64,000 nucleotides of DNA, taken from Borrelia recurrentis A1 (lineage in GTDB: Bacteria > Spirochaetota > Spirochaetia > Borreliales > Borreliaceae). Every line of letters begins with the position of its first letter. The stretch's first letter is position 1. The position numbers were made by a program, and so were the translations under genes. The DNA lies in contig NC_011246.1 of the NCBI RefSeq assembly GCF_000019705.1, positions 59,938 to 123,937 on the forward strand. Reading direction: 5' to 3'. The notes under the pieces were generated by a model, which searched no databases, was not told the origin of the DNA, and saw only the letters and a program-made list of their open reading frames with translations. Shown here piece by piece: positions 1 through 37,991 of the stretch.

Positions 1-272
1 TCAATAGCAAACAAAATAGTAGGAAGTGGATATTTATACAAAAATGAATACTCTTTATTATCATTAATAATGTCATAAAATTCATCAAAAAAAGATGCAG
101 ATATCATTAAAGAGCTTATTTTTTTCAAAGTAGATAAATTATTTAATTCTCGTCTTAAAGTTTCTTGACTTGAATCAAAACCTAAAATAGAATCCCAATC
201 ATACATAGGAATATCTCTTATAACATATTCATAAGCTTTATGCTTAGTTAAAATTTTAAGTTTATATCTCAT
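1..272 (-). CDS. DUF1473-family phage protein (partial)
   Basis: This reading frame opens with ATG at 272 and runs off the left edge after 90 codons without a stop. The protein begins MRYKLKILTKHKAYEY and contains IPMYDWDSIL and a later NKEYSFLYKYPLP segment, which resemble the small DUF1473 protein found after DUF1463 in cp32 prophages. Its role in the phage is unknown; its position between the tail tube-like gene and the tape-measure region suggests a tail assembly or chaperone role. The start lies 3 bases after the DUF1463 stop, so the two are probably translationally coupled. Confidence 0.7.
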   Translation of the reverse strand, partial: MRYKLKILTKHKAYEYVIRDIPMYDWDSILGFDSSQETLRRELNNLSTLKKISSLMISASFFDEFYDIINDNKEYSFLYKYPLPTILFAI

Positions 273-275
273 TCA

Positions 276-695
276 TCAACTCCTCTCAACTTCACAATTA
301 ATTGCATGAATTACAAAATTTACAGTATCACTGCCACTTGCATAAGTTCTACTTGGAATTTCAGAAAAAAATGCACTATTAGAAATAATCTTAAGTCCCA
401 TCTGGTCATTAAAAACCAATGATTTTAATTTGTCTCTCTTATAGCTAGAACCATAAAATTGCTCATTACTAAGTTTAGTTAACACCTTATAATCAAATGA
501 TCCTTTGGTAATCTCTAAATTAAATATGTGAATAATAGTTCTAGGATCTCTAAAACTTGGAATTGGAACATTTCGCTCCTCAGTACTGGCAGTTGCCATA
601 ACATTTGGAGAAGTTGAATATTGCAATTTGCCCCTATCAATAAGCACACCTGAGAAACTAAAGAACACTAAATCTAATGAATAATAATCCTTCAT
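276..695 (-). CDS. DUF1463-family phage tail protein
   Basis: A 139-residue protein starting MKDYYSLDLVFFSFSG, with GVLIDRGKLQYST and FRDPRTIIHIFNLEITKGS segments that match my memory of the cp32 DUF1463 family. Its place directly after the DUF787 gene is where contractile-tail phages carry the tube protein after the sheath, so tail tube is a reasonable inference. The ATG at 695 is chosen over the in-frame TTG at 698: it overlaps the upstream TGA (TGATG) and is preceded by GGGAGG. No signal peptide or membrane segment is seen, and the gene appears intact. Confidence 0.7.
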   Translation of the reverse strand: MKDYYSLDLVFFSFSGVLIDRGKLQYSTSPNVMATASTEERNVPIPSFRDPRTIIHIFNLEITKGSFDYKVLTKLSNEQFYGSSYKRDKLKSLVFNDQMGLKIISNSAFFSEIPSRTYASGSDTVNFVIHAINCEVERS

Positions 696-1771
696 CAATC
701 AACCTCCCGTCTTAAATAATCATTAATATCATCACTACTTATGTTTAACACAACACTCTTAAAACTATCATTATATTTAACACGAATAGACAAATCTAAA
801 CCCAAAATATTATCTCTCTTAAGTCCAAACTTAATATCACCAAAAGACACAATAAGTCCCCTCTCTTTAAATTCTTTAAATAAACACTCAAGTCCTGCTG
901 TATAAGCATTTGGTTTCCCATCAGCAAATTTTAATTCACTAAGCTTACTATTTTGCCTATGATTTCGATTCCAAATACGAATAAGTTCATGTGTTGATTC
1001 ATTCTTTAAAAGACAATAAGTGAATGCCTCATCAATTGGCATTGATGAACAATCTACCGCTTCCTTAAATGCCAAAACACCATCTCTACCGGTTTCATTT
1101 AAAAGCGAATAAAAATTAATATTATTACGTCTTAAATTATTAATCAAAGTTGCATCATAAATTGGACTTGCTCGTAATGTAATTCCATAAGGATTTACAG
1201 AATGAAACATGCTAGCTTCATATAAATATTTAGCTACAAATTTAAGATGTAAATTATCAGCACCATTATCATAAACCAAAATAACACCATCCCTCTGACT
1301 TACTGCTAACGCTTCCAAAAATTCAGGCAGTCTATTAAGATTTGTTGAGAATACTACAAATTTAACAAGACCTTTAATCATATTCCATTCTGCTCCAAAA
1401 TTTTCTTCTAGATTAGCAACAAATATAACAACTACATGTATATTTTTCTTTAAAAACTTAACAACATCTTCTATATTTTCGTAGATATAAAAATCAAAAG
1501 ACCTAAGCCCCTCCTCATTAAAAAAATCATTGCTACTCTTTATTAAAAACTCAATCTGATCGGCAGCTAATTTAACCTTTCCTACATCTGTTTTAACATC
1601 ATCTCTTACACTCATAGAAGTTAAAAAATCTCTAAAACTTCCACTAGTCAAGACGAAATGCCCTTTTTCTAAAACATCACTCTTATAAATAAGCAAAGGA
1701 TTATAATAACCAATATTATTCAACTTCACTTTATCTTCAATTAAATTGACATTAATTGTATCTTGTGGCAT
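695..1771 (-). CDS. DUF787-family phage protein, putative tail sheath
   Basis: A 358-residue intact protein. Its N-terminus (DTINVNLIEDKVKLNN, then YYNPLLIYKSD) is characteristic of the Borrelia cp32 DUF787 family. Length and position, just before the tube-like DUF1463 gene, suggest the tail sheath of a contractile tail, but no sheath motif could be confirmed by eye. The ATG at 1771 is preceded by GGAGATAAT at good spacing. The gene overlaps the next by one base, typical of the compact late operon. Confidence 0.7.
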   Translation of the reverse strand: MPQDTINVNLIEDKVKLNNIGYYNPLLIYKSDVLEKGHFVLTSGSFRDFLTSMSVRDDVKTDVGKVKLAADQIEFLIKSSNDFFNEEGLRSFDFYIYENIEDVVKFLKKNIHVVVIFVANLEENFGAEWNMIKGLVKFVVFSTNLNRLPEFLEALAVSQRDGVILVYDNGADNLHLKFVAKYLYEASMFHSVNPYGITLRASPIYDATLINNLRRNNINFYSLLNETGRDGVLAFKEAVDCSSMPIDEAFTYCLLKNESTHELIRIWNRNHRQNSKLSELKFADGKPNAYTAGLECLFKEFKERGLIVSFGDIKFGLKRDNILGLDLSIRVKYNDSFKSVVLNISSDDINDYLRREVD

Positions 1772-1816
1772 ATTATCTCCTATTTTTAAATTTAACTTTT
1801 AAGTTTAATTTATTTT

Positions 1817-2365
1817 TTAATCTATTTTATTTTCAACAATTTGTATATTTGCCCTGTAATTCTGACTAAGTCCCAAAACACCTTTTAATCCATTACAAGA
1901 AGTCTTAACAAACCCTCCATTTCTTAAATCACTTGTGGATTTTAAATAATAATTCAAAGATAAATCATATTCCTTTTCTAAAGGATTTTGTTTTAAAAAC
2001 TTAAATTTAAATGCATTCTCATGCAAAAATTCTAAAAAATATTCATAAATAGTATGCAATCCAACATATATCTTAAGTTCCCCAACCTCTCCCACAAATC
2101 CCAAAAAGAAAAGTATAAATTTAAATCCAAACTCATTAACATTCTCATAAAAACTCCCACTTCTAAAATTCCTAACATCCAAAGAATCAAAACCTTCAGG
2201 CCTTATTACTAAAAGATAAGAACCATTAATTTCTAGATCATTTAAATATAAAGGATTATAAGAATTGATAATCTTCACTTTTAAAGAATGTTTCTTTAAA
2301 TAATCTTTAAACTCAAACAATATTTTTACTAAAAAAGTTTGAGATTCATATAAACTCAGTAACAC
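1817..2365 (-). CDS. Phage protein, DUF764-like
   Basis: A 182-residue protein without membrane segments. It starts with GTG at 2365, preceded by GGAGAATATTT, which decides the start. The order DUF1506, this gene, DUF787 and the segments YLKKHSLKVKIINSYN and NGSYLLVIRPEG resemble the family I recall as DUF764. A tail terminator or completion protein would fit this position, but that is inference. No frame damage is seen. Confidence 0.6.
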   Translation of the reverse strand: MLLSLYESQTFLVKILFEFKDYLKKHSLKVKIINSYNPLYLNDLEINGSYLLVIRPEGFDSLDVRNFRSGSFYENVNEFGFKFILFFLGFVGEVGELKIYVGLHTIYEYFLEFLHENAFKFKFLKQNPLEKEYDLSLNYYLKSTSDLRNGGFVKTSCNGLKGVLGLSQNYRANIQIVENKID

Positions 2366-2397: not shown

Positions 2398-2772
2398 TTA
2401 AAGTTTTCTAAGCATCAAAACAATATATCTAAATCTTTGATTTAAAGAAAAATTTAAATGCCTACTTACACTTAAAATTTCCATAATATCATTACCCACT
2501 AATAATTGCTCTCCTGAATTAAAATCAAGAATATCTAAAGTATAAGTCTTTGCATGAATTTCTTTAACAAATATATTAGAATCAAAAAGCTCAATATTAC
2601 TCTCACCACTTGGTAAAAACACTCCATCAAATTTAATAGGAGTTGTCTTATCAATCTTAATTTCATAAGAAAAATTGGTCCTGTTTTTAATTAAATTTTT
2701 CTTAAATAAAAACATTGGTTGTGTATACCTTTTCATATTTCGAACTATGGCTAAATTAATAGCATCCATCAT
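2398..2772 (-). CDS. DUF1506-family phage protein
   Basis: A 124-residue protein with a basic N-terminal half and the segment PIKFDGVFLPSGE, matching the small cp32 DUF1506 family. The start ATG overlaps the stop of the DUF3890 gene (ATGATGG), so translational coupling is likely; a second ATG follows at once (2769). In phage operons this slot, after a neck adaptor and before tail genes, usually holds a head-closure or neck protein. That role is inferred from position only. Confidence 0.6.
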   Translation of the reverse strand: MMDAINLAIVRNMKRYTQPMFLFKKNLIKNRTNFSYEIKIDKTTPIKFDGVFLPSGESNIELFDSNIFVKEIHAKTYTLDILDFNSGEQLLVGNDIMEILSVSRHLNFSLNQRFRYIVLMLRKL

Positions 2773-3161
2773 ACAACCCCTATTAAAACTTTCCTATTAG
2801 TCTTAATATCCTCTACAAGATTATTAAAAGCAGAACAAAAATCATTAACCAAAACTTCACCATGCAATGCATCATCAAAATACTCAACTGATACTTCACC
2901 TAATCTTTCTGATTTAATTTTACCCAAATCAAAATACAAAAGTTTTCCTCGCTTTTTAAGTTCACATCCAATAAAATAATAAATAAGCAAAAACACATTA
3001 CTTGAATTTAAATCTTTAAGTCCTAAACCTCTGCTAAGTAAAACATCCTCAAGTAACCCTATATACAAATTAAATTCTTCAAAATTAAAATCTAAACTCT
3101 TAATCATAAGTAAATTCAATATTTTAGAATAAATTTTATCTAAATCCTCATTACTATCCAT
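2769..3161 (-). CDS. DUF3890-family phage protein, possible head-tail adaptor
   Basis: About 130 residues, mostly helical, starting MDSNEDLDKIYSKILNLL. It contains the pattern LIYYFIGCELKKRGK that I recall from cp32 DUF3890 proteins. A helical protein of this size directly after the capsid gene is typical of gp6-like connectors. The ATG at 3161 is preferred; an in-frame TTG at 3173 lies inside the end of the capsid gene and would add four residues. The gene is intact and overlaps the next by four bases. Confidence 0.6.
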   Translation of the reverse strand: MDSNEDLDKIYSKILNLLMIKSLDFNFEEFNLYIGLLEDVLLSRGLGLKDLNSSNVFLLIYYFIGCELKKRGKLLYFDLGKIKSERLGEVSVEYFDDALHGEVLVNDFCSAFNNLVEDIKTNRKVLIGVV

Positions 3162-3163
3162 TA

Positions 3164-4087
3164 TTATGTCCAACTTATCTTAAATCTAAGTATTGATTTT
3201 TCACTTGCAAGAATGCTTCCAATAGAAAAATCCAAAAAACTAGTTCTAAAATTACTACTTGACATTTGTGTATATGCATTTAAAATTGGAGGATGTCCAT
3301 CTTTTAGCAATAAAAGCTTAGAACTTTTTGGATAAATTAACATCTCATCATCCAATAAATTGGTAGTCTCAAACTCAATATCAGCATCATTATTTATTGC
3401 TCTTAGAGAATCAAACAACACATCTTTATATGAATAATTATTATTACTCAATCTCTCAAGCAATATCGCTTTAATTTTAGGAGTTGTAAGTACTCTAAAA
3501 GGCACTCCTCGCTCATCTTCTACATTAATATTACCAATCTCATCATTACAAGCCTTTATTAAATCAGAAGCTTTAGTAATTTTAATATTTTTATCTATTT
3601 GTCCTGGAATATTAAGTAATCCATACATAGTTTCTCTATTAGAATCATCAACCAAAAGTGTTCTCTCTTTAGAACCAGAAAAACACAAACCACCCCTTAA
3701 ATAATGTGAACTTAAAAGTTTATGTATTTGTGATAAGGAATACCTAAGTCCTTCTCTCATATTAATATTATTAACTGCTTGAATATCCAATCTGCCATCA
3801 GGTGCATAATATGTAAATGCATATTGAAAAGGTAAATAATTAACAAGAACAACTTGTCTTTTAAACTTAATAGTAGCAACCGTACTAAAATCATTTACTT
3901 TCAGTGTTGGTAAATCCACGATACTAGAATTCCATTTAATAACTCGCTCACTTGTAAGTGATGCATCATTAGTTTCTATTTGTTCATTATCAAAAAAATG
4001 ATAATATTCAGGGATTGGCCTATCAACAAAAAGAGAATCTCTAAGAGTATTTACAAATTCTTCATTATTAAATAAACTTTCACTCAA
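3164..4087 (-). CDS. Phage major capsid-like protein
   Basis: A 307-residue protein in the major capsid position (after DUF228, before the adaptor). Mid-protein segments VKFKR-type and QYAFTYYAPDGRLDIQAVNN, and the C-terminal VLTTPKIKAILLERLS followed by DGHPPILNAYTQMSSSNFR, look like a phage coat protein of the DUF2184/encapsulin-like type. The start is TTG at 4087, ten bases after AAGGAG; no ATG is available nearby. The gene is intact, unlike the three upstream of it. Confidence 0.6.
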   Translation of the reverse strand: MSESLFNNEEFVNTLRDSLFVDRPIPEYYHFFDNEQIETNDASLTSERVIKWNSSIVDLPTLKVNDFSTVATIKFKRQVVLVNYLPFQYAFTYYAPDGRLDIQAVNNINMREGLRYSLSQIHKLLSSHYLRGGLCFSGSKERTLLVDDSNRETMYGLLNIPGQIDKNIKITKASDLIKACNDEIGNINVEDERGVPFRVLTTPKIKAILLERLSNNNYSYKDVLFDSLRAINNDADIEFETTNLLDDEMLIYPKSSKLLLLKDGHPPILNAYTQMSSSNFRTSFLDFSIGSILASEKSILRFKISWT

Positions 4088-4183: not shown

Positions 4184-4777
4184 TTATAAAGGCTTACTGA
4201 TAAGCATTACCTTTGCACCATAAAATCCTGACTTATCTTTAAACTCTAAAGCATCACTTAAAGCCAAAGCTTGCATATAAGTACCATTGGCCTTCACCTT
4301 TGAAAGTACTCCCATATCATCAAAAACCAATTTATCACCAGACTTAACATTCATATCTCACAACAAAATACATTCAAAACTATTTGCAATTGAGATGACT
4401 GTTGCTGTTCGTGTCAAATCATCATAATCTATGCAAATTCCATAAAGATCACTCCCACCACCACGTGTCACGCAAGTTGACATACCATTTTGCACAACAA
4501 GTTTAACTCCACGTTTATAGCAAAACCCAATATCTTGATAATTTTCAAATTTATCTGCCAAAGAATACTGCAAGCCCCCTCTATGAGCAAAATAAATATC
4601 TAGAGATCCAAACTGAACCTCTCTATCAAAAACTGCTGGATATGTGGTATGATCTTTTAGTCGCATCAAAACTTCTGATTGCTTGCCCAATTTTAAATAT
4701 GCAAGTTCACTCTCAAGTCTATCCTTTTCCCTAGTAAGTCTCTCGACACTGGCCTCTAATGCACTCTTATCTGCCAT
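4184..4777 (-). pseudogene. DUF228 phage protein gene with one internal stop
   Basis: ATG at 4777 follows AGGAGAGTATTT. The first 139 codons encode a coiled-coil N-terminus (SALEASVERLTREKDRLE) and the DUF228 core: GYPYKRGVK-like CYKRGVKLVVQ, GGGSDLYGICID, then RTATVISIANSFE. A TGA at 4358-4360 then interrupts the frame. In the same frame after it, about 57 further codons (VKSGDKLVFDDMG, LALSDALEF, ending LISKPL at 4184) give the missing DUF228 C-terminus. This is one nonsense change in an otherwise whole gene. DUF228 proteins may be capsid decoration or scaffold components; their role is not settled. Confidence 0.75.
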
Positions 4778-4850
4778 AAATACTCTCCTATTTTAAATTT
4801 ATATTAAACTTAAATTAACTTAACTTAAAGATTTAAACATTATAAAAATC

Positions 4851-5373
4851 TTACCTAATTTGCATCCACTCATTAAGCATTGCCTGTTTTAAATCTTTAT
4901 AATCTTTTATTTTATGACTTGCATTTCTTAAATTTAACACCTCCTGAACATTGCCTTTAGTAAAAGTCATAAGACCATATGAATTATTACTATTTTTAAA
5001 TGAATCAATACTCACACTTGCAAGTCTTAGCAATATATCTTTAATCTGACTATTTAAATTTAAAATATCAAGACTACCTGCAACTGCCAATATTTGCTTC
5101 TCATCAACATATTTTTTAATGAGTTCACACACTTGAATATCTAAAACTTCACCAAGTGCATGACCTGAATTAATAAGTTCTTTTGTATTATAACTTAAAC
5201 TCAAGTTATCATCAGCAAGCCTAGTAATCCAAACAGCTCTAGTTAACAATTCATTATTATTAATATCATTACTGATATTATGCTCAAATTTAATTTAAAT
5301 CTTGATTTACATCAACAGTTTTATCACCATCTTCAATGTCATTCTTTAGATTAACACCAGAAGCCTTTATCAT
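4851..5373 (-). pseudogene. DUF1357-like phage gene broken by a frameshift
   Basis: The gene opens with ATG at 5373, overlapping the TGA of the portal frame (ATGA), and encodes MIKASGVNLKNDIEDGDKTV before stopping near 5290. The remaining 132-plus codons (NNNELLTRAVWITRLADDN to LNEWMQIR) lie in another frame that has no good start. A single-base change between about 5290 and 5312 would join both into one protein of about 170 residues. Position between portal and DUF228 suggests the cp32 DUF1357 gene, a likely head maturation or scaffold factor. Family assignment is tentative. Confidence 0.55.
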
Positions 5374-6580
5374 TCACTAAACCACCTAAAATTAAAATGT
5401 AATTTACTATTTAATATTTCTATCTCATCATCACTTAAAGAATTTGATCTTACAATATCTAAATACTTAGAATAAACATCAAGAAACATCTTATCTTCCT
5501 CCAATCTTTCTTTATCACTAAGTACAATTAGATCATTAAAATACATATTAAGCCTGTAATACTTATTAAGCTTAATATTAACTGAGAGTGCTGCTGCTTC
5601 CTGAACGGTATGTAAAAAGTCAATATAGTTAGTCCTATCTCCCTTACCATCACTCCCCAAACCCTTTACCTACTCATAAAATTTCTCGTCAATGGTTCTT
5701 TACTATCAGCACCTATTTTTGCTTTTACAAGTTCAAATGCATCCTTTAAAAAAGAGAGATCATATTTTATAACCTGCAAACTTGCTCCCTCATCAGCACT
5801 ATAAAATACTCCATCATTACTCAATCCACTCTTTAATCTCTCAATCATACGGCTAAGCTCATAATCGACTGTTTCCAAATTTTTTTGATTATCATCATTT
5901 TTAAAAAATGTAGAAAATAAACCTCTGCCCTTACTACTAAAATGACTTATTTGATTCTTAGCATCCTGTAAAGCATCCATAAGACCAACCAATTGTTCGT
6001 CCTTGTAAAATAAAAAATTATATTGCCCAATACGTTTTTCTATTTTTGTATATATCTGCTCTAACAAACAAATATCTAAAAGTAAACTTTGAGTGTAAAC
6101 TAGTGTATGTTCATTCAATACATAATCAAAATTCTCATAAATTACAACTCTACTTTTATGCACAATAATAAAAGTACCATCATCTTGAAAATACTTTAAA
6201 TAATCACTATTGTGATCATCTTTTATTCGATTATAATCTAAATACTTAAATCCAAATGGCAATTCATCATTAACACTTTTACTTAAATCTTCATACAAAT
6301 CTTTAGGTCTAATTAAAATATATCCAGCACCATTAAATCTATAACTTATAATTGCTTCAAGAAGTGCATTTGAAAGTTCTAAATTTAAAAATTTTAAACT
6401 ACTATAATCAAAAGAATCTTTCAAATATTCTAATTTAATTCCACACTTCAATGCATCTTCTGCTGAATTTTCTATATAATTCCTAAAAAATAACGAATAT
6501 TTATAAAGCTTTAATGGATCTATTGAATATCTTTTAAATAACGCATGTTCAAAATCATTCATGGGTTTTTTAAATATCAT
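5370..6580 (-). pseudogene. Phage portal protein (DUF1073-type), frameshifted
   Basis: ATG at 6580 opens a 304-residue frame resembling the Borrelia PBSX/DUF1073 portal: GAGYILIRP, DYNRIKDDHNSDYLKYFQ, VDYELSRMIERLKSGLSNDGVFYSADEGASLQVI, then KEPLTRNF. It stops at 5666. The expected continuation (GLGSDGKGDRTNYIDFLHTVQEAAA to HFNFRWFSE) is in another frame ending at 5370. The break falls in a short G/A-rich run at about 5655-5668, so one inserted or lost base explains it. Joined, the two give about 400 residues, normal for the family. A portal forms the DNA channel of the phage head; as read, it would be truncated. Confidence 0.75.
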
Positions 6581-6744
6581 AAATTAATTATATCATTGAT
6601 ATTTAACTTTGTAAATTAAATATCAAAAATATCAATCAAATTTACAAATAATTATACATATACATCTATTTTTTGAGTCTTAATTTATTTAAGACTTTAA
6701 ATAAAATTTATCAACAATAAACATTATCAAAAATATAAATAAAT

Positions 6745-6774
6745 TTACCTTAAGACCCAAAAGTCTTAAGGTAA
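6745..6774 (-). terminator. Rho-independent terminator after the 6836-8116 gene
   Basis: A perfect 12-bp inverted repeat (TTACCTTAAGAC with its complement, 6-base loop) lies about 60 bases past the stop of the minus-strand lipoprotein gene and is followed on that strand by a T-rich run. A weaker hairpin sits at about 6676-6696. Confidence 0.7.
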
Positions 6775-6835
6775 GTAACTAAATTTATAAATATTTATAA
6801 ATCTAAACAATAACCAAAATAACTGCTCTTATTTA

Positions 6836-8116
6836 TTATTGTCCAAGAATACCTTGTTTTAGTTGAGCCAAATCAGAACTATTAGAAGCGTGAAATTTAG
6901 CTTCCATCATCCATATTAAGTCTTGAGTATCTGCAGATTTATCAGAAGAATCAGCATAGTACCACAAAGTATCTGCCACATTTTCAAAGAATACTCTTAT
7001 AGAACTAGAATAATCCTTATAACAAAGAGCTAAATCAATCAAAGCTGCAACATGATAATAATTTTTAATATCACTAGAAGACTTAATTCCAGCTTTCTCT
7101 AAAATATCACTTTTATCTCTGACACCATTCTCAATTAAAGATTTAACTTCTGCTGAATTTGCAGCATTTTCCTTCATAAAGTCATAAAATTTTTTCACAG
7201 AGCGTCCAAGTTCCAATCTTCTTATATCACCAGCAACAGTATCTTCTTTGGACATACCCATTAATTTTTCATATTTTGTTTTAATTTTCTCTTTATAATC
7301 GTGACGATTTTTAAGTCTACTAGAATAGGAATTTTTATCTATAAGAGAAATAACATCTTTAAGATGTTTTTCTAAAAAATTAAACATCTTTTTCTCATCA
7401 TCAGAAATATACACTTTTGTAGCTCTTTCTCCTGGACGAACCTTGTAAGTTTGACAGTAAACTTTAGAACGTGATTCATTACTCATTTTGTGTCCAGAAT
7501 AATTTGTAGGCTTTTTATATGTATTTTGCTTAGTAGAAACAGAAACAGGTTTTCTGGTTTTTACAACAGGAGAAGCAACTACTTGTTTAATTTCACCATT
7601 AACATCTCCTTCTAATTTAGCAACCAAAGATTTAAAATCTGAACCCTTAGCAACAACATCTGATACTTTAGCAACTAAATCTCCTTGCACCTCACCTGGC
7701 TTACCAAAAACTTCTGCCTTAACATCAGCAACCAATTTCTTAGCACCATCAAGAGCAACAACCATTGCCTCCCCAACAGCAGAAACATCAATCTTACCAT
7801 CTCTATCAACATTAACAGAAATTGAGCCTTTACCTTCAGCACCAATAACAACATCTTTATCTTTATAAACAAAAGTACCATCTTCATTTAGAACAACAAC
7901 ATTACCATGTTCATCAAAATAATTACCCTGATCATCAACATAATAATATTCATATTCAACATGTTCCTCGACAAGATCACCCAAGAAACGTTCTGCACCT
8001 TCAATAATAGTTTGCAACCTATCTTTCCCTTCATCATCTTTACCAAGCAATCCAGTCAAATCACAACCAAATGATAAGATGATTAAGAGAGTAATAAAAA
8101 TTTTATAAATCTTCAT
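6836..8116 (-). CDS. Surface lipoprotein with acidic stalk and helical C-terminal domain
   Basis: A 426-residue lipoprotein. The signal peptide ends in the lipobox LSFGC (Cys 18). Residues 50-90 are acidic and Tyr-rich with repeated Asp-Gly turns (VDDQGNYFDEHGN, NEDGTFVYKD). Residues 90-180 are Ala/Val/Gly-rich with recurring Val-Ala-Lys-Val, and 185-215 form a Lys/Thr/Ser linker. A helical C-terminal domain follows (SDDEKKMFNFLEKHL onward). The start is set by AAGGAGG eight bases upstream. The architecture suggests an outer-surface protein whose helical domain is held away from the membrane. No family was recognised. It is transcribed away from the BTA121 cluster, with about 250 bases of shared upstream DNA. 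Confidence 0.7.
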   Translation of the reverse strand: MKIYKIFITLLIILSFGCDLTGLLGKDDEGKDRLQTIIEGAERFLGDLVEEHVEYEYYYVDDQGNYFDEHGNVVVLNEDGTFVYKDKDVVIGAEGKGSISVNVDRDGKIDVSAVGEAMVVALDGAKKLVADVKAEVFGKPGEVQGDLVAKVSDVVAKGSDFKSLVAKLEGDVNGEIKQVVASPVVKTRKPVSVSTKQNTYKKPTNYSGHKMSNESRSKVYCQTYKVRPGERATKVYISDDEKKMFNFLEKHLKDVISLIDKNSYSSRLKNRHDYKEKIKTKYEKLMGMSKEDTVAGDIRRLELGRSVKKFYDFMKENAANSAEVKSLIENGVRDKSDILEKAGIKSSSDIKNYYHVAALIDLALCYKDYSSSIRVFFENVADTLWYYADSSDKSADTQDLIWMMEAKFHASNSSDLAQLKQGILGQ

Positions 8117-30010: not shown

Positions 30011-30047
30011 GAGAACTCACAAAAATATTCATAACAACTCTTAAATA

Positions 30048-30477: not shown

Positions 30478-31023
30478 TTAATTTTTCACTCTTTTTGAAG
30501 ATTCAAACTGAGTCACTATTTTTGCTAAAAATTCTTTTTCATCTGAGAAAACTCTCTCTAAAAGAAAACTCGTAAGTTTGGCATTTTTTTTATAAAATGC
30601 ATAAGCATCAGGACATTTAAGCTGAAATCTTAAAGGTCGCAATGGATTCTGCTTAGATCGTTTTATATTAACGCCCTCTTTATTTCTTAGCAAAAACATA
30701 GTCCCATTAATACCATTGTTAATAACATACTTCTCTTCAACAATTCCTTCTTCAATAGCAGTGGCTATTTTTAAATATTTATATGTCTGAGTTCTAGCAA
30801 GTCTATAATCTTTTGCAAAATCATCAAAACTAGCATAATTATCAAGTTTATAATATTCATTATCTTTAATTTCTTTTAATACTTTCATCGCTTCAATTTT
30901 ACAAAAAATTTCTTTTTGAAAGTTAATTTTCAATCTCTCTTTAAGCTTATTATAGTGAATAGATACTTGTTCTTCTGACGAAATATTTTGAGTTAAATTC
31001 CTCTTATTAACCTCTATTCCCAT
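30478..31023 (-). CDS. Plasmid partition protein, Borrelia PF49 family
   Basis: 181 residues from ATG 31023, eight bases after AGGAGG (an in-frame TTG at 31029 is less likely). It carries the PF49 pattern: KEIKDNEYYKLDNYASFDDFAKDYRLARTQTYKYLKIATAIEEG, then NPLRPLRFQLKCPDAYAFYKKN. PF49 proteins accompany ParA on almost all Borrelia plasmids and probably act as the DNA-binding partner in partition; the YRLARTQTYKYLKIA stretch looks like a helix-turn-helix. Last gene of the four-gene cassette, 57 bases after ParA. Confidence 0.85.
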   Translation of the reverse strand: MGIEVNKRNLTQNISSEEQVSIHYNKLKERLKINFQKEIFCKIEAMKVLKEIKDNEYYKLDNYASFDDFAKDYRLARTQTYKYLKIATAIEEGIVEEKYVINNGINGTMFLLRNKEGVNIKRSKQNPLRPLRFQLKCPDAYAFYKKNAKLTSFLLERVFSDEKEFLAKIVTQFESSKRVKN

Positions 31024-31079
31024 TTCCAACCCTCCTTTGCTTTTACGTACACTAAGTGTACGTAAGTTATAATGTAAGC

Positions 31080-31835
31080 TTAAACAACAAAATTCTTAAT
31101 CTTGTCCATCAAAACTGAGAGTGTGTTTTGATACTCTCTTATATAATCTTTATTTAAATCAAAAACATCATTCCTAGCTATTTTTCTATTTAAATCTTCC
31201 CTCTCTGATATTGTACCCAAAAAATTGTCATTTTCCTTTAAAATATTTAATAACTCTTTATGCGTATTATTTCTTTTGAATTTAGTATTAATCAAATAAA
31301 TAGGAGCTTTGATGGATAACTTGTCTATAAAAAAATTAAACAAATCCAAACTTTCAACTGCCCACTTTTCTGCTGTAATTGGCACTATAATGTAACTGCT
31401 ACATACTAAAGCATTAGTTAGCGTAAAATCTAAACTAGGATTAGTATCAAGTATTATATAATCGTATTCAAATTCTAATAATTTTAATTGTTCTTTTAAT
31501 CTAAATTCTTTATACGGAATAGATTCAGAATTAAATTTATGCAAAGTTAAATAACTTGGTATCAAATCCAAGTTGCTATTAACATTTACAACAGCATTAT
31601 CAATATGCAAATTAGATATTAAAACCTCATATATATTTCGATTAAATAAATCTACTCCTCTTTCCTTTATTATCTTAAAATAATAACTAGTGGTCGATGC
31701 TTGGGTATCTATATCAATAATTAATACCTTAAAAGATTGAGATAGGAGAGTAGCAAATATTAAACTAGTTGTGCTCTTGCCTACTCCACCCTTAATTGAT
31801 GCCACTGTAATTACTTTTGTCTCTTTTCTATCCAT
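31080..31835 (-). CDS. parA: ParA-type partition ATPase, Borrelia PF32 family
   Basis: 251 residues. A deviant Walker A motif KGGVGKST (residues 15-22), the switch segment IIDIDTQAS, and YIILDTNPSLDFTLTNAL identify a ParA/MinD-type ATPase that positions plasmid copies at division. PF32 type sets plasmid compatibility in Borrelia; the type could not be decided by eye. The gene overlaps the end of PF50 by 25 bases, so the two are translationally linked. Confidence 0.92.
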   Translation of the reverse strand: MDRKETKVITVASIKGGVGKSTTSLIFATLLSQSFKVLIIDIDTQASTTSYYFKIIKERGVDLFNRNIYEVLISNLHIDNAVVNVNSNLDLIPSYLTLHKFNSESIPYKEFRLKEQLKLLEFEYDYIILDTNPSLDFTLTNALVCSSYIIVPITAEKWAVESLDLFNFFIDKLSIKAPIYLINTKFKRNNTHKELLNILKENDNFLGTISEREDLNRKIARNDVFDLNKDYIREYQNTLSVLMDKIKNFVV

Positions 31836-32374
31836 CTCGGAACAATACCCCCTTCCGGTAATTTTTTTCCATAAAACGCATAAAGTTTCCTCTCTAATTC
31901 TAGGAGTATACTCAGTAAAGTCTGATAATAGGAACTTCCAATCTTACCCTTTTTTAATAAATTATGTAGCCCACTTAGATAACAAAAAACACCACCTTTC
32001 TTAAATCTGAATTCAATATATTCACACTTTCTTAAAGTATAAGTTTCTCTTTTATTGAAGTTTTTTACCAAAAATGCTTTGTCTAATTTTTTAATCCCAT
32101 AGTAAATACCCAAAAAATTATCATCATCTCGTATGGAAAATAAATGAAACATACTGATATCTTCTATGTTAAAAATTCCCCTAAGGGATATAAAAAATTT
32201 AGTAGGTTCGTTCTTGCTTATTCCAAACGCATAAAAATCATTAAATATTTTAGTATGATATATCTTACGATTATTAATCTCTTCTACTTTAGAAAAGATA
32301 TTTTTACCCTTTTTTTGATTCTTGGGATCTATTTCCTTTTTCTTCTGCTTCAATAACTCTAGTAAAGCCACCAT
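31811..32374 (-). CDS. Plasmid maintenance protein, Borrelia PF50 family (DUF226)
   Basis: 187 residues, with the PF50/DUF226 pattern: KIYHTKIFNDFYAFGI, FFISLRGIF, LFSIRDDDNFLGIYYG, RKCEYIEFRFKKGGVFCYLSGL, and a C-terminal LLSILLELERKLYAFYGKKLPEGGIV. PF50 lies between PF57 and ParA on Borrelia plasmids and is involved in replication; its biochemical activity is unknown. Start ATG 32374 follows GAAAGG. The downstream end overlaps ParA. Confidence 0.85.
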   Translation of the reverse strand: MVALLELLKQKKKEIDPKNQKKGKNIFSKVEEINNRKIYHTKIFNDFYAFGISKNEPTKFFISLRGIFNIEDISMFHLFSIRDDDNFLGIYYGIKKLDKAFLVKNFNKRETYTLRKCEYIEFRFKKGGVFCYLSGLHNLLKKGKIGSSYYQTLLSILLELERKLYAFYGKKLPEGGIVPRWIEKRQK

Positions 32375-32401: not shown

Positions 32402-33511
32402 TTACTTTATTGTATCAAGCAGTTCGTAATAATACGTATTATCAACTACTTTACTATATTTCAATTCGTCTTGAGCATTAATAAATTTCTTTAAAGTTGG
32501 TACCAATATGCCAATATCAAATTTATGCCTCAACTGTTCTAATAATATACTAAAAATATTGTTTTTTATATCATCTCTTTCTTTTGTTTTTGATTTGCAT
32601 TTTTCAGTATTCTTTTTTATTTTTTGAATTAACAAATCTAGATCCCTATATTTGTCTTGTTCTATAATAAAATGGGGCTTATTTTTGTATCTTTCATATA
32701 TTTTGTTTATTTCTTGATTTAGGACATCTTCTTTATAATTTTGACTTTCCAGCTCCTTTCGTTTTAAGTCCAATATTTCTTTAAGTTCCTTTTGCTTAAT
32801 CTCCTGTCTTTTAATTTTGCTTTCAATATTTTTCAAATATCCCATCCCTTCTAAAAAGCCCTTAACGCAGTTGGGAGTACCCTCTATTAACTTTCCTTTG
32901 AGTAAATTTATTTCGTCTAAAGATAGTGCTTCTATGGCTCTTTCATACTTTTTGATTTCCTTTATAAGTTCTATCTTTAAATCTTTTTCTATTTTTGAAT
33001 TTAATAAAACAAGAGGAAGATCAATTTTAAAGTGGCATTTGCTTATATACTTTTTTAGTATTCTCTCTTCTATCTTTTTATTATTATTTATATTATTAAT
33101 ACACTCCCATTTTGGACTCCCATTTTCTTGAATATAAGTTTCTATCCTCTTTGTGAATTTGTCTATCTTTTCTTTTTTTATGTTTCGGAAATATTGATTT
33201 ATCTTGGTATGACATGTTTTTTTTGGATATTTTAGCTTATAATAAATTTCGCTGCCGCATTGCTTACCTAGATGTTTGCAATAGTTGAGTGTGATTTTGT
33301 ATTTTTTCTCAAGTTCATATAGATAATTTTGTAGTGTTTTTATCTTGACTTTTTGTTGTTTGTTTCTAGTTAAGTTTCCATTAAAAAAATATAAAATGTT
33401 TGTTTGTGTATATTGCTTTAATTTTAAATTCATAAAATTAAGTGTTGATATAAGTACAATCAAGTTGTATTGGTATCTGTTGGTTTTGCCTTTTATTTTT
33501 TTGATTTCCAT
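32402..33511 (-). CDS. Plasmid replication protein, Borrelia PF57/62 family
   Basis: 369 residues, strongly basic, with the family signature near the N-terminus (NRYQYNLIVLISTLNFMN, QTNILYFFNGNLTRN, TLQNYLYELEKKYKI) and a long coiled coil in the second half. PF57/62 proteins are the replication initiators of Borrelia plasmids. The gene heads the PF57-PF50-PF32-PF49 cassette and starts at ATG 33511 after AGGAGTAAAC. Base composition of the strands changes within this gene, consistent with an origin in or beside it. Confidence 0.85.
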   Translation of the reverse strand: MEIKKIKGKTNRYQYNLIVLISTLNFMNLKLKQYTQTNILYFFNGNLTRNKQQKVKIKTLQNYLYELEKKYKITLNYCKHLGKQCGSEIYYKLKYPKKTCHTKINQYFRNIKKEKIDKFTKRIETYIQENGSPKWECINNINNNKKIEERILKKYISKCHFKIDLPLVLLNSKIEKDLKIELIKEIKKYERAIEALSLDEINLLKGKLIEGTPNCVKGFLEGMGYLKNIESKIKRQEIKQKELKEILDLKRKELESQNYKEDVLNQEINKIYERYKNKPHFIIEQDKYRDLDLLIQKIKKNTEKCKSKTKERDDIKNNIFSILLEQLRHKFDIGILVPTLKKFINAQDELKYSKVVDNTYYYELLDTIK

Positions 33512-33992: not shown

Positions 33993-34358
33993 TTACTTTT
34001 TTAACTTGCTACATTTTTTATATACATCAATAGCTATGGGTTTTGTTGTGTTGATATAATGCTTTAAATGTTTGATATTTTCTTTTATTGTTTGCAATGT
34101 ATGTTCTTCTTTTAAATTTTTCGGATCAAATAGTGTAAATGGTGGGAAATTATAATTTGGAAATTTTTGTTTAGCTCTAATTAAAAAAGTTTCAAAATAT
34201 AATACATAACTTGTTAGTTGTGTTTCATATATGCTTAAGTTTTTAAGTGTAGGTTCAATAGGTGGCTCAGGTTCATTTGTAAGCGATGCTATTGATTTGC
34301 AACTAAATGTAATAAATTGTAATAAAATGATTAGGTTTACTATTGATTTCTTATTCAT
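33993..34358 (-). CDS. Small lipoprotein in the phage lysis cassette
   Basis: 121 residues with a signal ending ITFSC (lipid Cys about residue 20), a Pro/Glu segment (TNEPEPPIEPT) and a helical body. It directly follows blyB, overlapping it by four bases (ATGA), with AAAGGAGGG as ribosome site. cp32 prophages carry a small lipoprotein gene in this position. A spanin- or lysis-accessory-like role is conceivable for an anchored helical protein after a holin, but that is inference. Confidence 0.65.
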   Translation of the reverse strand: MNKKSIVNLIILLQFITFSCKSIASLTNEPEPPIEPTLKNLSIYETQLTSYVLYFETFLIRAKQKFPNYNFPPFTLFDPKNLKEEHTLQTIKENIKHLKHYINTTKPIAIDVYKKCSKLKK

Positions 34359-34738
34359 TTTTGCCCTCCTTTTTTATTTTTACTGTTTATTTTGTCCAAT
34401 TCTTCTTGTAGCAATTTTGTTTTAATTTCAATAAGATTATTGCGTTCAAATCGCAAGTCTTCAATTAAAGTTGTATCAGCATCGGTGTTAATTGCATCTA
34501 TGAGTTTTGCTATTTTGCTTAATATAGTTTCAAGCTCTAGTACAATTTGTTTACTTTCTTTCATTTCCATTTTTTGTAGCGATCTCGTGTAAATATTATT
34601 CATATATTTGTAAATATCGATTACTTTTTTGATACCAGTTTGAAAAAGTTCGTCATCTTGTGTATCACTGTATACAAAAAATTCTATTAGGTTTTTTAAG
34701 ACAATTAGTCCAAGTTCGGTATTAGTTTTATTTAACAT
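34355..34738 (-). CDS. blyB: BlyB, holin accessory protein
   Basis: 127 residues, soluble and helical, matching the cp32 BlyB pattern: TNTELGLIVLKNLIEFFVY, then KKVIDIYKYMNNIYTRSLQKME, SKIAKLIDAI, and the Lys-rich end EIKTKLLQEELDKI. BlyB stabilises or assists the holin-like BlyA in Borrelia phage. ATG 34738 follows AAGGAATATTT. Intact. Confidence 0.8.
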   Translation of the reverse strand: MLNKTNTELGLIVLKNLIEFFVYSDTQDDELFQTGIKKVIDIYKYMNNIYTRSLQKMEMKESKQIVLELETILSKIAKLIDAINTDADTTLIEDLRFERNNLIEIKTKLLQEELDKINSKNKKGGQK

Positions 34739-34774
34739 AAATATTCCTTAAATCTTCTTATTTAAATAAATTTT

Positions 34775-34960
34775 TTACTTTTTATTTTTACTTTGTTTAT
34801 CAATTAAATACTTGAGTAAATGCTTAATAATTTTAACTATTTCAGCTAATACAGGTTTTAAGAATAAAGCCAAAGGGATTAGTATAAATAACGTAATGAT
34901 TCCAATAATTATGAGTTTTGTCTCGGCAATATTTGATAAAAAGTCAAATACTGTATTCAT
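34775..34960 (-). CDS. blyA: BlyA, holin
   Basis: 61 residues from ATG 34960; an ATG at 34972 lies inside the ribosome site (TGGAGGAAAAT) and is rejected. One hydrophobic membrane segment (about residues 17-36: IIIGIITLFILIPLALFL) and a basic C-terminus (KKHLLKYLIDKQSKNKK-like) are the hallmarks of the cp32 holin BlyA. It would permeabilise the inner membrane for phage release. Upstream of blyB in the usual order. Confidence 0.8.
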   Translation of the reverse strand: MNTVFDFLSNIAETKLIIIGIITLFILIPLALFLKPVLAEIVKIIKHLLKYLIDKQSKNKK

Positions 34961-35076: not shown

Positions 35077-36189
35077 TTATGATTTAAGAAGATGAGGAAC
35101 ATCTTGATTTTCATCGTTGTTATATATATAGCTCTTTAGTTTGTACCATCCGTCAAGAAGAGTGATAGTTGTGTTATGTTGTTTCCCGGTGTAGGAATAT
35201 ATAATATTGTATTGTGATGCATTACTATTCTCTGAAAATCTCAAGTAAATTATTTTAGTCATGGTATTATTTGGATATTTATCCCTTGTAAGGGCAAGCA
35301 TTATTTGAAGATATATATTTTGTTCTTTATAATTTCTTGGAAACCTTAACTCTACTTTTTCGCCTGTTATCTCTATTTTTAATAATTTGTCATAAAATTC
35401 TTTTAAAGTATAATAAGCATCGTGTGTAGGTTGTATGTTCCAATATTGAAAATCATTAGGAATTCCTTTTAAATAACGATATTCTATTCCTAATCTATAT
35501 AGTTGTTTGTTTGTAGGATGAAAAGCAAGAAATTCTAATTCCATGTTAGGATATTTGTATTCTGGCATTTCTGGTATTATAGATTTTAATTTTGACTCTA
35601 GTTCGTGATTTTTGAGATAAGAAGTATTGATATTGTTAGTAATGCTTGTAATTTGTTTTATTTGTTCAAGAATTTTGTCTGTCTGGTTTTTTAGGTTGTT
35701 TAAATTAGTGATTTCTGCAAAAATTTGTTTTAATTTGTCTATAAATGTTTGAAATCCAATTAATTCAAAATCCTGTCTTTGTGGATTGTAGATTGATATT
35801 TTGCTTGAATTTATGTTATCTCCAGCTTGATTTATATTTTGAATCAATATTTCCTTGATTTTTTTTAAAACATCATCAAGTGTAATTTTGTTTGTTTCGT
35901 TCTTAAGGCCTATTAGTTTAGATATTGTTTTTATATACATTTCGTCTACATGAGATTCGTATTCAAGTAATTCTTTAGATATTATTTCTCTAATTACTTG
36001 TTTAAAATATTCAATACCTCTATAAAAGGTATCTTCTTGAATTTGTATAAGTAAATTTTTATATATAATTGCATAAGTCTCTTCAACAATATCGTCAATG
36101 GGAATTAAATCATTTTCATTGACTCTGATTTTTCTGTTAAAATCTTTTATTTGTATGCTTTCTTCTGTATTGTCTTGTTCATTTTCCAT
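35077..36189 (-). CDS. DUF685-family phage tail protein
   Basis: 370 residues, beginning MENEQDNTEESIQIKDF with NENDLIPIDDIVEETYAIIYKNLL, the DUF685 pattern of cp32. The middle is coiled coil (residues about 150-200); the C-terminal half is beta-rich with Tyr and Trp (YWNIQPTHDAYYTLKEFY, LDGWYKLKSYIYN). Its place after baseplate genes and before the holin is where tail-fibre or receptor-binding genes sit, so a tail-fibre role is plausible. ATG 36189 follows AAGGAGGG. Intact. Confidence 0.7.
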   Translation of the reverse strand: MENEQDNTEESIQIKDFNRKIRVNENDLIPIDDIVEETYAIIYKNLLIQIQEDTFYRGIEYFKQVIREIISKELLEYESHVDEMYIKTISKLIGLKNETNKITLDDVLKKIKEILIQNINQAGDNINSSKISIYNPQRQDFELIGFQTFIDKLKQIFAEITNLNNLKNQTDKILEQIKQITSITNNINTSYLKNHELESKLKSIIPEMPEYKYPNMELEFLAFHPTNKQLYRLGIEYRYLKGIPNDFQYWNIQPTHDAYYTLKEFYDKLLKIEITGEKVELRFPRNYKEQNIYLQIMLALTRDKYPNNTMTKIIYLRFSENSNASQYNIIYSYTGKQHNTTITLLDGWYKLKSYIYNNDENQDVPHLLKS

Positions 36190-36226: not shown

Positions 36227-36809
36227 TTATTTTATTTCTTTGTTATTAATATCAAAAATTTTAATGGTTCTCCCTGCAGGAATTAGAGATTTTATAAATC
36301 CATAAGTTGAATTTTGAAAATCCTTTGGAATATAGTTGGATACAAGTTTTTTAAGTTTGCCTTTATGTTTAATCATAATAGTTTTTAATTTTCCTTTAAT
36401 TTTACCGGCTATTTTAAATTTAATTGGTGATCTTATATGTTCAAGTAATTTTATGATAATCTCGCCAGGTATATTTGGATTAACATTAATTTCGATTCTT
36501 GCATGTAAAAATGCTTTAAATATTAAATGAAAACTTTCATCTGTGCCTATTGATTTTATTGCAAATGTTAATGCTTTGATATAATTGATTAGATCTTTTT
36601 TAAGTCCTTTTTTTTAAATGAGATGCATTAAATAGTGATAGCATTAGTAATGCAATGTATCTTGAATTGATACTTTCATCTACATTAATAGAAGCAAAAT
36701 TCTCAAGTAATTGATTAAGCTCTTTTAATAATTATTTTTTAAAATCAAGTTCGCTTTGTATAATTTTTGCAATCTGTGTATTTTGTAAAAAGTGTGGAAT
36801 TGTTTTCAT
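36227..36809 (-). pseudogene. DUF735-like phage gene, broken by a stop and a frameshift
   Basis: ATG 36809, four bases after the DUF276 stop, encodes KTIPHFLQNTQIAKIIQSEL, then a TAA. The same frame continues (LLKELNQLLENFASINVDES to LMLSLFNASHLKK). At the A8 run near 36609-36616 the frame changes, and the remainder (DLINYIKALTFAIKSIGTDE, FHLIFKAFLHARIEINVNPN, GRTIKIFDINNKEIK) reads to a TAA at 36227. Together this is one gene of about 190 residues in the DUF735 slot between DUF276 and DUF685. Two separate lesions show real decay. Confidence 0.7.
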
Positions 36810-36812
36810 TTC

Positions 36813-37673
36813 TTATTCTCTTTCTATTATGAGCCTTGAATTTTCATCAAAAGAAATAAGTTCGTTTGCTTTAATTTCAATGTCATTGTTGAATTGAAAT
36901 TCACTTTCTTTGATTTCTGTTATTTTGGTATTTAAATTTTCTTTTGTATGAATACCAATTTTCATTTTTCTAATTCCTTGTAGTAAACTTACAGGACCTA
37001 ACAAGTCTTGATAGCAAAAAGAGATACCCATATCTTTGTATTTGTTTTGAAATATTTTTTTATAAATTTCTCTTATGTTTTCATCTATTTCTTTGTGGAT
37101 AGATTCTGTTTCGGTTTTATATAATACTTTTAAATATGCATATTTAATTATTCCCAAGCTAAACTTATATGTTTTTTGTTGTCCGTTTTTATTGAAAAAT
37201 TCAAGTTTTATTTTTCCTCTAAATGCTGTTCCACATGGAGCAGTATTATATATTGCTTTCCAAATTTGTATTTTTATATCTTGTGTAATGGCTGATAGTG
37301 TTCTATATTCTTTCGTAAATATTATGTAAATTTGTATTGTTCCTGCAGAACTTATAATATTTGCGTATTCTATTTGTGGAATTGCTAGTAATGTTTGTTT
37401 GACTGCCTTGTAAGTTGAGCTTTTGTATATACTTAGGGAATGTTGTAGTTTTTTGAAATATTTTCCTCCTTCTTTGAGTGTTTCAAATAATTCATTTAAT
37501 GCTTGAATTATTTCCATGTCAATGGCAGAACTTGGGTAATTGATTATGTCAAAAATGGAATTGTCTTTGATAAGAATATTATATTCTCTCTTTAGTATTT
37601 CTTTTTTTATATTTTGTATTTCTTCTATTGATTTTGTAATGATTCCAGTTTCTTTGTCAAATACTATTCTCAT
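36813..37673 (-). CDS. DUF276-family baseplate protein (J-like)
   Basis: 286 residues: MRIVFDKETGIITKSIEEI, INELNLFF-like IIQALNELFETLKEGGKYFKKL, SSTYKAVKQTLLAIPQIEYANI, TAPCGTAFRGKI, and KDMGISFCYQDLLGPV fit the cp32 DUF276 family. This corresponds by position and pattern to the baseplate J-like wedge component of contractile tails. ATG 37673 starts just after the gp25-like stop. The gene is intact and more A-rich in codons than block A genes, in line with its position on the other side of the composition switch. Confidence 0.75.
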   Translation of the reverse strand: MRIVFDKETGIITKSIEEIQNIKKEILKREYNILIKDNSIFDIINYPSSAIDMEIIQALNELFETLKEGGKYFKKLQHSLSIYKSSTYKAVKQTLLAIPQIEYANIISSAGTIQIYIIFTKEYRTLSAITQDIKIQIWKAIYNTAPCGTAFRGKIKLEFFNKNGQQKTYKFSLGIIKYAYLKVLYKTETESIHKEIDENIREIYKKIFQNKYKDMGISFCYQDLLGPVSLLQGIRKMKIGIHTKENLNTKITEIKESEFQFNNDIEIKANELISFDENSRLIIERE

Positions 37674-37676
37674 AAG

Positions 37677-37991
37677 TTATATTCCATATTTACAGTATCT
37701 CCAGCTAAAAAAAATTGTAATATTATTCTTTTTTTTTATCTTGATATTTAATATGTCTATGTCTAGGGTTTTTAGTGCATTTGCAAAAAAGATTTTAATT
37801 TCTTCTTCTTTTTGGTTCTTTAAAAGTTTTATGAAGAAATTAAAATCAAGACCATAATTTTTGTCATAAAGACTGCCAATAGGTGTTTTTAGATATAAAA
37901 GCAGTCTTTGTTTTCGCTCATCAAGGCCATCTACTATTTTTAAATCGTTATTAAAAATTATTTTAAATTCATTATCTATTTTAATATCCAT
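37677..37991 (-). CDS. gp25-like baseplate protein
   Basis: 104 residues with the pattern DGLDERKQRLLLYLKTPIGSLYDKNYGLDFNFFIK, typical of T4 gp25/phage P2 W-like baseplate or sheath-initiator proteins. First gene of this operon portion. ATG 37991 follows AAGGTAATT. The tape-measure, DUF792, DUF693 and DUF777 genes that normally precede it in cp32 are not to its right, so the prophage is broken here. Confidence 0.7.
   Translation of the reverse strand: MDIKIDNEFKIIFNNDLKIVDGLDERKQRLLLYLKTPIGSLYDKNYGLDFNFFIKLLKNQKEEEIKIFFANALKTLDIDILNIKIKKKNNITIFFSWRYCKYGI

Follow-up and report, generated by a model that had tools for sequence, protein, structure and literature searches.

How did the genes of one prophage come to lie in two blocks on a Borrelia megaplasmid, with some 21 kb of other genes between the terminase and the portal? 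The question is raised by a window of 64,000 nucleotides from Borrelia recurrentis A1 (contig NC_011246.1, C8 in our numbering, positions 59938-123937; "the window" means this whole stretch), which is the right-hand portion of its contig (123,937 bp); the genome assembly has 1,242,163 bases in 8 contigs. The genome was published with seven linear plasmids (PMC2525819; this and the other papers are cited from excerpts). Since the published megaplasmid measures about 190 kb and A1 is without one of its regions (PMC13128870), the left end of the contig may be incomplete. We argue that the megaplasmid very probably carries a relative of the cp32 prophages, opened between the genes DUF777 and DUF2634 and with 21 kb of cargo at the terminase/portal junction, and that this layout likely comes from the common ancestor of the megaplasmids and of lp54 of the Lyme Borreliella, by a recombination whose steps are proposed below.

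According to Pfam and homology searches, the minus-strand phage genes form a single collinear cp32-type map. In minus-strand order, the right block comprises DUF2634, DUF276, DUF685, BlyB, orfD/BBA14, PF57-PF50-PF32-PF49 and the terminase, and the left block portal, DUF1357, DUF228, DUF3890, DUF1506 (below the Pfam cut-off), DUF764, DUF787 and DUF1463. A first-pass annotation, made from the letters of the window, had recognized this cp32 order, which Pfam confirms with five genes broken here, and the gap of about 21 kb, which measures 21,175 bp. It had also remarked that the baseplate end stops at 38 kb without its usual upstream partners, and had pointed to the DNA left of base 1 as the place to look for the rest of the cp32 order. 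The partners are indeed there: tblastn with B. anserina backbone proteins as queries finds, leftward of base 1, DUF1473, DUF1322, the tape-measure position, DUF792, a BBA52-like gene, DUF693 and DUF777, then thyX and nrdIEF. The partners "missing" at one end are thus at the end of the other block, which argues for one circle opened once. The prophage had been described as split; both breakpoints are real, but a single opening and a filled junction describe them better. Regarding this flank, the nrdF region (C8:47135-48163) has two in-frame stops relative to the B. anserina reference, both here and in the genome that we number G003; the reference may have an over-long N-terminus.

The same two breakpoints are found across the family. 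In cp32-1, terminase (which ends at 30750) and portal (which starts at 66) abut across the start of the record, and DUF777 and DUF2634 are separated by 30 bp. In our junction table, where the record length was added for pairs that cross the record start, the distance from terminase to portal is 65-925 bp in 9 cp32-type replicons versus 5.4-31.8 kb in 18 lp54 and megaplasmid replicons. The distance between DUF777 and DUF2634 is at most 175 bp in 9/9 cp32-type replicons, and the two genes are at opposite ends of the block in all 16 lp54 and megaplasmid replicons in which both were read (for B. hermsii and B. nietonii, the DUF777 end is outside the 50-kb stretch read). The backbone order is the same in B. 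burgdorferi lp54, B. anserina, two B. miyamotoi, B. hermsii, B. turcica, Borrelia sp. RT5S, B. puertoricensis, B. turicatae, B. nietonii, G002 (B. coriaceae), G003, G007 (B. parkeri), G008, G014, G026 and G029.

The terminase has a match in 33 of 36 Borreliaceae genomes, and so has the portal; the three genomes without one are single-contig assemblies. Among the matches listed, 29 lp54 and megaplasmid pairs have a gap of 5.2-30.4 kb (7,459-30,410 bp in 12 megaplasmids, 5,179-9,120 bp in 17 lp54), while 40 cp32-type pairs are 106-1,423 bp apart, so that the two ranges do not overlap. The pairs were hand-picked, and the 40 cp32-type pairs are not exhaustive. Not counted were G030, whose copies are decayed, the second lp54 copy of G022, the draft G010, the G005 megaplasmid, which has its terminase and its portal on separate contigs, cp32 copies in which the pair crosses the record start, pairs in which a gene is fragmentary, some adjacent pairs on draft contigs (e.g. 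G005:C140) and the pairs of G014:C2 and G016:C5, whose two genes are on opposite strands; G020 was retained despite one stop each in terminase and portal. As a side observation, G022:C3 carries terminase, portal, the cargo gene BBA36 and the structured element described below in two inverted lp54 copies, as in an lp54 dimer.

Could the two blocks come from two unrelated phages, one bringing the terminase and the other the portal? The 21-kb gap, taken alone, would suit this idea, one of the two that the first-pass annotation had named as overturning its reading; the other, an interruption of the cp32 order left of base 1, is contradicted by the flank described above. Quick trees were built for terL, portal, DUF787 and DUF276, on 28 rows each, and for PF32, on 27 rows; they were rooted on cp32 by choice, and their support comes from the Shimodaira-Hasegawa-like approximate likelihood ratio test (SH-aLRT) only. 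In 5/5 trees, cp32-type sequences and those of lp54 and the megaplasmids are on opposite sides of one branch, with SH-aLRT values of 100, 100, 100, 100 and 95, respectively. In all five trees lp54 is one group and the megaplasmids are one group, the latter supported at 92 for PF32 and at 96-99 for the other genes; the cp32 PF32 rows are on long branches. In published work, the PF32 tree agrees in its lp54/RPF4/F6 part with the tree of whole genomes (PMC10481545). The same split obtained from genes of both blocks leads us to reject two separate phages, and terminase and portal are on the same strand in 29/29 of the lp54 and megaplasmid pairs listed. We therefore give two insertions next to no credence: one phage explains both blocks.

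The trees have no independent root, so that the change may be read in the opposite direction, with a linear, lp54-like layout as the ancestral state and the cp32 circles produced by excision and loss of cargo. This is very unlikely, considering that terL abuts the portal in the lp28-2 phage and that the baseplate genes are contiguous in cp32. More generally, terL abuts the portal in most tailed phages, and the baseplate genes are contiguous in PBSX. The cp32-10 inserted in lp56 also keeps its terL unseparated from its portal.

Regarding the cargo, the gap in the window holds 18 open reading frames (ORFs) of at least 80 amino acids: an F0 gene of 426 amino acids, an F6 array, an F0 gene of 765 amino acids, an F7 gene, two F2, two S2/P23 and an alp-type gene. 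The earlier description of a lipoprotein insert fits 12 of these 18 ORFs, according to a crude lipobox rule, but the insert is not made purely of lipoprotein genes. A structure search with one F6 protein returned no solved structure that resembles it. The family labels come from single-linkage grouping of the gap ORFs of at least 80 amino acids from 18 replicons. F0 (BBA35-like) is present in 17/18 gaps, F1 (S2/P23) in 15, F2 (BptA-type, 131 ORFs) in 15 and F3 (alp-type) in 12. F5 (BBA36) is found in the gaps of three lp54, B. turcica, RT5S and G014, F6 in five (the B. recurrentis window, G003, G008, B. hermsii and B. nietonii) and F10 in three.

To control for families that are simply common, whole genomes were searched for BBA36 and BBA35. 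BBA36 is matched in 23/36 genomes, at a single locus each except in G022 (two), and it lies inside the gap in 22 of the 23 (18 of the Lyme genus, G013, G014, G015 and G016); in the 23rd, the draft G010, it stands 2.8 kb before a decayed portal. BBA35 is matched in 28/36 genomes, 10 of them outside the Lyme genus; in 8 of these 10 the gap contains the best match, counting the draft G005, whose contig carries only the portal side of the gap. The position of BBA36 suggests that part of the cargo is ancestral, and that the filled junction is likely older than the split of the Lyme and relapsing-fever genera. Most of the present cargo bulk, on the other hand, is lineage-specific.

The latter point (families F2, F6, F10, F11 and F12) would also be explained if the terminase/portal junction were a hot spot, filled separately in the Lyme and relapsing-fever lineages, and other junctions are filled too in cp32 and lp54. 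Large extra DNA is found in lp54 or the megaplasmids at five of the 28 backbone junctions, including terL/portal and the opened DUF777/DUF2634: BBA14/PF57 holds ospAB in lp54 and an IS605-type pair in G003, PF49/terS holds dbpBA in lp54 (erp and others in cp32), and DUF792/DUF693 holds the BBA52-like gene. A small gene at DUF1506/DUF764 is common to lp54 and cp32. Independent insertions are nevertheless improbable, since BBA36 homologues occupy the gap in both genera, the order is F0-F5-portal in lp54 and F0-F0-F5-F2-F2-portal in RT5S, and none of the 40 cp32-type pairs listed has a filled junction.

Some other observations concern these junctions. In B. hermsii (L014 8900-12166) and B. nietonii (L056 7989-11260), the portal end of the gap consists of MupG and a phosphotransferase system (PTS) cellobiose operon of the celB type, not of lipoprotein genes. 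In G010:C9 (11118-14850), where the BBA36 homologue precedes the decayed portal, the lp54-type terminase was not found; this is possibly another decaying copy. The BBA14/PF57 junction of G003 (G003:C5 131340-133591) carries a 2.25-kb ORF pair that is IS200/IS605-like by eye, and an OrfB_IS605 gene is also detected by Pfam at positions 41923-42672 of the window.

The first-pass annotation had proposed that the replication cassette of the megaplasmid is derived from the phage, and the contig supports this. It has, over its 123,937 bp, a single partition cassette, which lies within the phage block, and the cumulative GC-skew minimum of the contig is at window position 33,149, inside PF57, although the flanking phage genes up to 38 kb are all on one strand. 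In 8 of 9 other megaplasmid stretches (46-50 kb, not whole plasmids) the minimum is also inside PF57, and in RT5S it is 163 bp beyond it. These observations support the idea that the replicator of the megaplasmid is the phage's own cassette. The capture of a phage is likewise upheld insofar as there is one phage origin; it does not concern this megaplasmid alone, the layout being common to lp54 and the other megaplasmids.

Beside the cassette, directly 3' of PF49, is a 119-column block whose mean column conservation is 0.95 across 14 megaplasmids. The block is 89% identical to lp54 over 82 bp. The structured element that it holds is matched in 32/36 Borreliaceae genomes, after PF49 in the replicons fetched. 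The strand of the element folds with z = -4.7. In an alignment of 31 distinct sequences, 99.3% of the pair cells hold a standard pair, and both sides have changed in 6 of 29 pairs, both values being reached by 0/500 shuffles; the count of further pair types is not above that of shuffles (107/500 reach it). Rfam gives nothing at the gathering score for 28900-31100, with three weak matches, the best at E 0.12. The element is the "Sequence #5" of an earlier study, which knew it from three lp54-type plasmids of the Lyme group and noted a need for further homologues (PMC2674063); these are supplied here. We considered calling it a packaging site (pac) and did not, because it is unmatched in cp32-1 and the cp32 pac lies upstream of erp (PMC11008901).

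Are the phage genes still of use? Nei-Gojobori ratios of nonsynonymous to synonymous divergence (dN/dS) were pooled over 27 backbone genes, partition genes included (23 for B. hermsii/B. nietonii, 21 for G003/G005); cargo pairs below 50 codons were dropped and stop codons skipped. The backbone value is 0.24 for B. parkeri/B. turicatae, 0.28 for B. turicatae/B. puertoricensis, 0.15 for B. hermsii/B. nietonii, 0.33 for the two B. miyamotoi and 0.16 for G003/G005; the cargo value is 0.67, 0.77, 0.49 and 0.65 for the first four pairs. Among the backbone genes checked in 17 other replicons, 481/483 are intact, and 15 of the 17 have no break in the genes that were read; the two breaks are both in DUF276, in the distant replicons RT5S (L016 44560-45406) and G026:C2 (an lp54), and 11 other relapsing-fever replicons have none among the backbone genes read. 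Judged from these ratios, the phage genes, taken together, are under purifying selection in tick-borne species, which suggests that their virion genes likely still do something there, either particle formation or DNA transfer.

The view of the phage genes as a dead relic that hitchhikes on a needed plasmid is consistent with the breaks in B. recurrentis (5 of 29 genes), with the B. recurrentis/G003 ratios (0.50 for the backbone and 0.65 for the cargo, on few changes) and with the high dN/dS of some single genes. It appears quite unlikely given the 481 intact genes and the pooled ratios of 0.15-0.33; moreover, virion preparations of phiBB-1 were found to contain structural proteins encoded by lp54 (PMC11008901). 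The same counts and ratios speak against the proposal of the first-pass annotation that the phage became a mere scaffold for antigen genes. A bolder proposal is that lp54 and the megaplasmids are one ancient domesticated phage, something like a family-wide gene-transfer agent whose virion and packaging genes are selected in tick-borne species, whose particles move surface-antigen genes and which decays in lice. We regard it as rather unlikely. The lp54 and megaplasmid replicons (54-194 kb) have outgrown the 31-kb cp32 genome.

In B. recurrentis itself, 24 of the 29 backbone genes are intact and portal, DUF1357, DUF228, DUF735 and DUF693 are broken, so that the full set of head, tail and packaging genes expected of an active phage or gene-transfer agent is not there. 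The portal open frame has 305 amino acids, compared to 400-423 in stop-free lp54 and megaplasmid copies. The altered ends of DUF2634 (3') and of the terminase (5', its first codons being out of frame relative to G003) were not scored as broken. Each break is a frame change or a stop, in A/T-rich DNA, and a single strain was compared, as would be the case if they were sequencing errors of an old assembly. This is unlikely: in the table published with this assembly, 20 pseudogenes accompany 800 chromosomal ORFs (PMC2525819), a proportion that 5/29 exceeds (Fisher p 0.0012). Of 15 cargo ORFs of G003, 14 have a close match in B. recurrentis and 5 of these are broken, so that decay reaches beyond the phage genes. 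In the F6 array, three homologues of G003 ORFs are split by frame changes. Among the matches listed, the cp32-type terminases of B. recurrentis contigs C4, C5 and C7 are broken or partial, none being full-length, and no second portal was found in the genome, so that there is no obvious helper phage. We conclude that the phage genes are decaying in the louse-borne B. recurrentis.

The following mechanism would account for these observations. A circular prophage plasmid would have recombined once, at the baseplate junction, with a linear plasmid, likely in the common ancestor of the Lyme and relapsing-fever bacteria, and the partition cassette of the phage would have taken over as replicator. 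The terminase/portal junction, taken as the boundary of two phage gene blocks, could accept genes while both blocks remained unbroken. The cargo would then have grown by duplication, lineage by lineage, giving the F2/BptA-type arrays of several New World soft-tick species, the F6 array of B. recurrentis, G003 and G008, and the F10 array of B. turcica, RT5S and G014. Virion function would have been retained in the tick-borne species.

Several points weigh against this mechanism. The entry of a circle into a linear plasmid is known from its product alone, and nothing in these data shows that megaplasmid particles form. The trees were quick and rooted by choice, and the finer order of the megaplasmids differs between genes. 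In G014:C2 (7740-15169) and G016:C5 (15527-23599), terminase and portal lie 5-6 kb from each other on opposite strands, a third arrangement that belongs to neither class. Outside the Lyme genus, BBA35 has weak matches only (best E 2e-10), the best one is elsewhere than in the gap in G002 (B. coriaceae) and G008, and no F0 gene was found in the B. anserina gap. BBA36 is unmatched in G000-G005 and G007-G009, and the gap ORFs of B. miyamotoi do not include it, so that the genomes that tie the cargo strongly to lp54 are RT5S (G013), G014, G015 and B. turcica (G016). The skew minimum of lp54, over its first 50 kb, is at 9,382, upstream of ospA and outside PF57. Last, the dN/dS of single genes is high in some pair: DUF787 (0.80), the tape-measure protein TMP (0.77-0.83), DUF764 (0.75), DUF1506 (1.17) and the BBA52-like gene (0.80).

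The kinship of lp54 and the megaplasmid and the cp32 origin of lp54 are already published. lp54 is thought to derive from recombination between a cp32 and a linear plasmid, and phiBB-1 is reported to package it (PMC11008901); the megaplasmid is related to lp54, with more than 22 kb of orthologous sequence in common, and its terminase gene, the orthologue of bba31, has in B. turicatae a 16.9-fold higher expression in blood than in ticks (PMC4741519, PMC10580987); and cp32 circles integrate into lp56 and lp54 (PMC5870499, PMC11389397). The excerpts of the literature searched did not show that both breakpoints are shared, nor the ancestral cargo gap, nor the contrast in selection, and older work may hold part of this. 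The results place the surface-antigen plasmids that are best known from Lyme and relapsing-fever spirochaetes on one prophage map with named cargo junctions, their gene content can be compared junction by junction, and a general kinship becomes a testable single event. The contrast between tick-borne species, which keep the virion genes, and the louse-borne species, in which they are breaking, makes lp54-type particle production directly testable.

The features of the window are collected below. PHROGs named 3 of 9 submitted proteins (the terminase, one virion protein and one baseplate protein); for the protein at the small terminase position, Pfam and PHROGs searches gave no match.

Table. 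Backbone genes, cargo and structured element, in coordinates of the 64,000-nucleotide window
Feature	Position	Strand	Basis
DUF1473 gene, 5' part (runs on leftward of the window)	1..272	-	tblastn
DUF1463 gene, tail module	276..698	-	PF07316, E 1.7e-64
DUF787 gene, tail module	695..1771	-	PF05619, E 1.3e-113
DUF764 gene	1817..2365	-	PF05561
DUF1506-like gene	2398..2772	-	PF07405 below cut-off; position and tblastn
DUF3890 gene	2769..3173	-	PF13029
Conserved head-module gene; position matches lp54 28014-28931 and cp32-1 3963-4922	3164..4087	-	tblastn, 83% to B. anserina
DUF228 gene, stop-broken	4187..4777	-	Pfam, tblastn
DUF1357 gene, stop-broken	4836..5270	-	Pfam, tblastn
Portal gene, frame change	5382..6580 (open frame 5666-6580)	-	PF06381
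Cargo region	6581..27752		ORF clustering, Pfam
F0-family predicted lipoprotein adjoining portal	6836..8116	-	Clustering, lipobox
F6-family ORF array, mostly with lipobox-like start	8370..18948	+	Clustering, lipobox
F0-family (BBA35-like) large predicted lipoprotein	19213..21510	-	Sole BBA35 match of the B. recurrentis genome
BptA-family gene, broken relative to G003	22880..23512	-	PF17044
Two S2/P23 (BB0158-family) genes	24447..26323	+	PF24960
alp-type predicted lipoprotein (F3)	26845..27375	+	B. hermsii homologue annotated arthropod-associated lipoprotein
Terminase large subunit	27753..29078 (open frame 27753-28991)	-	PF03237, PF17289
Small terminase position (terS)	29109..29660	-	Position; 64% identity to B. 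anserina gene
Conserved structured (RNA-like) element downstream of PF49	30044..30146	-	Conservation, folding, covariation
PF49 partition gene	30478..31029	-	PF01672
PF32 (ParA)	31080..31835	-	PF13614
PF50 (DUF226)	31811..32374	-	PF02890
PF57 replication/maintenance gene	32402..33511	-	PF02414
BBA14/orfD lipoprotein gene	33993..34358	-	PF02999
Holin genes BlyB (34355-34738) and BlyA (34820-34960)	34355..34960	-	PF05289; tblastn
DUF685 gene	35077..36189	-	PF05085
DUF735 gene, broken by frame change	36230..36809	-	tblastn
DUF276 baseplate gene	36813..37673	-	PF03434
DUF2634 / sheath initiator at the opened junction, with altered 3' end	37677..37991	-	PF10934

Compared with known systems, the window belongs to the lp54/F6/RPF4 family: its PF32 and phage genes group with those of lp54 and the megaplasmids in 5/5 trees, it is opened at DUF777/DUF2634 with thyX on the DUF777 arm, its terminase/portal junction is filled, and the structured element follows PF49. 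A thymidylate synthase is also reported on lp54 (PMC3303823), where thyX is outside the part read. lp54 shares with the window the backbone order, the opening, the filled gap, the BBA52-like gene and the element beside PF49, and its partition genes are the nearest to those of the window outside the megaplasmids. Unlike the window, its gap is only 5.2-9.1 kb (17 lp54-type pairs among the matches listed), two more of its junctions, short in the window, hold ospAB and dbpBA, and nrdIEF is unmatched in the 50 kb of lp54 read. Among the F6/RPF4 megaplasmids of relapsing-fever and reptile Borrelia, the window is simply a member, with the same order, opening, gap and clade; what sets it apart from the others is its F6-family array, which G003 and G008 also have, and its five broken phage genes.

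The cp32 plasmids and phiBB-1 have collinear homologues of most backbone genes and the same type of partition cassette. The window has their gene order, but not the adjacency of terminase and portal or of DUF777 and DUF2634 that is seen in these circular replicons, and it is outside the cp32 clade; cp32 also has its own ERF, integrase, erp and rev genes. The closest modern parallel of the event that we propose is the cp32-10 of lp56 in strain B31, a cp32 circle opened within a linear plasmid. It differs from the window in that it is opened in the DUF228 genes, has two partition gene sets and has kept its terminase/portal junction unfilled.

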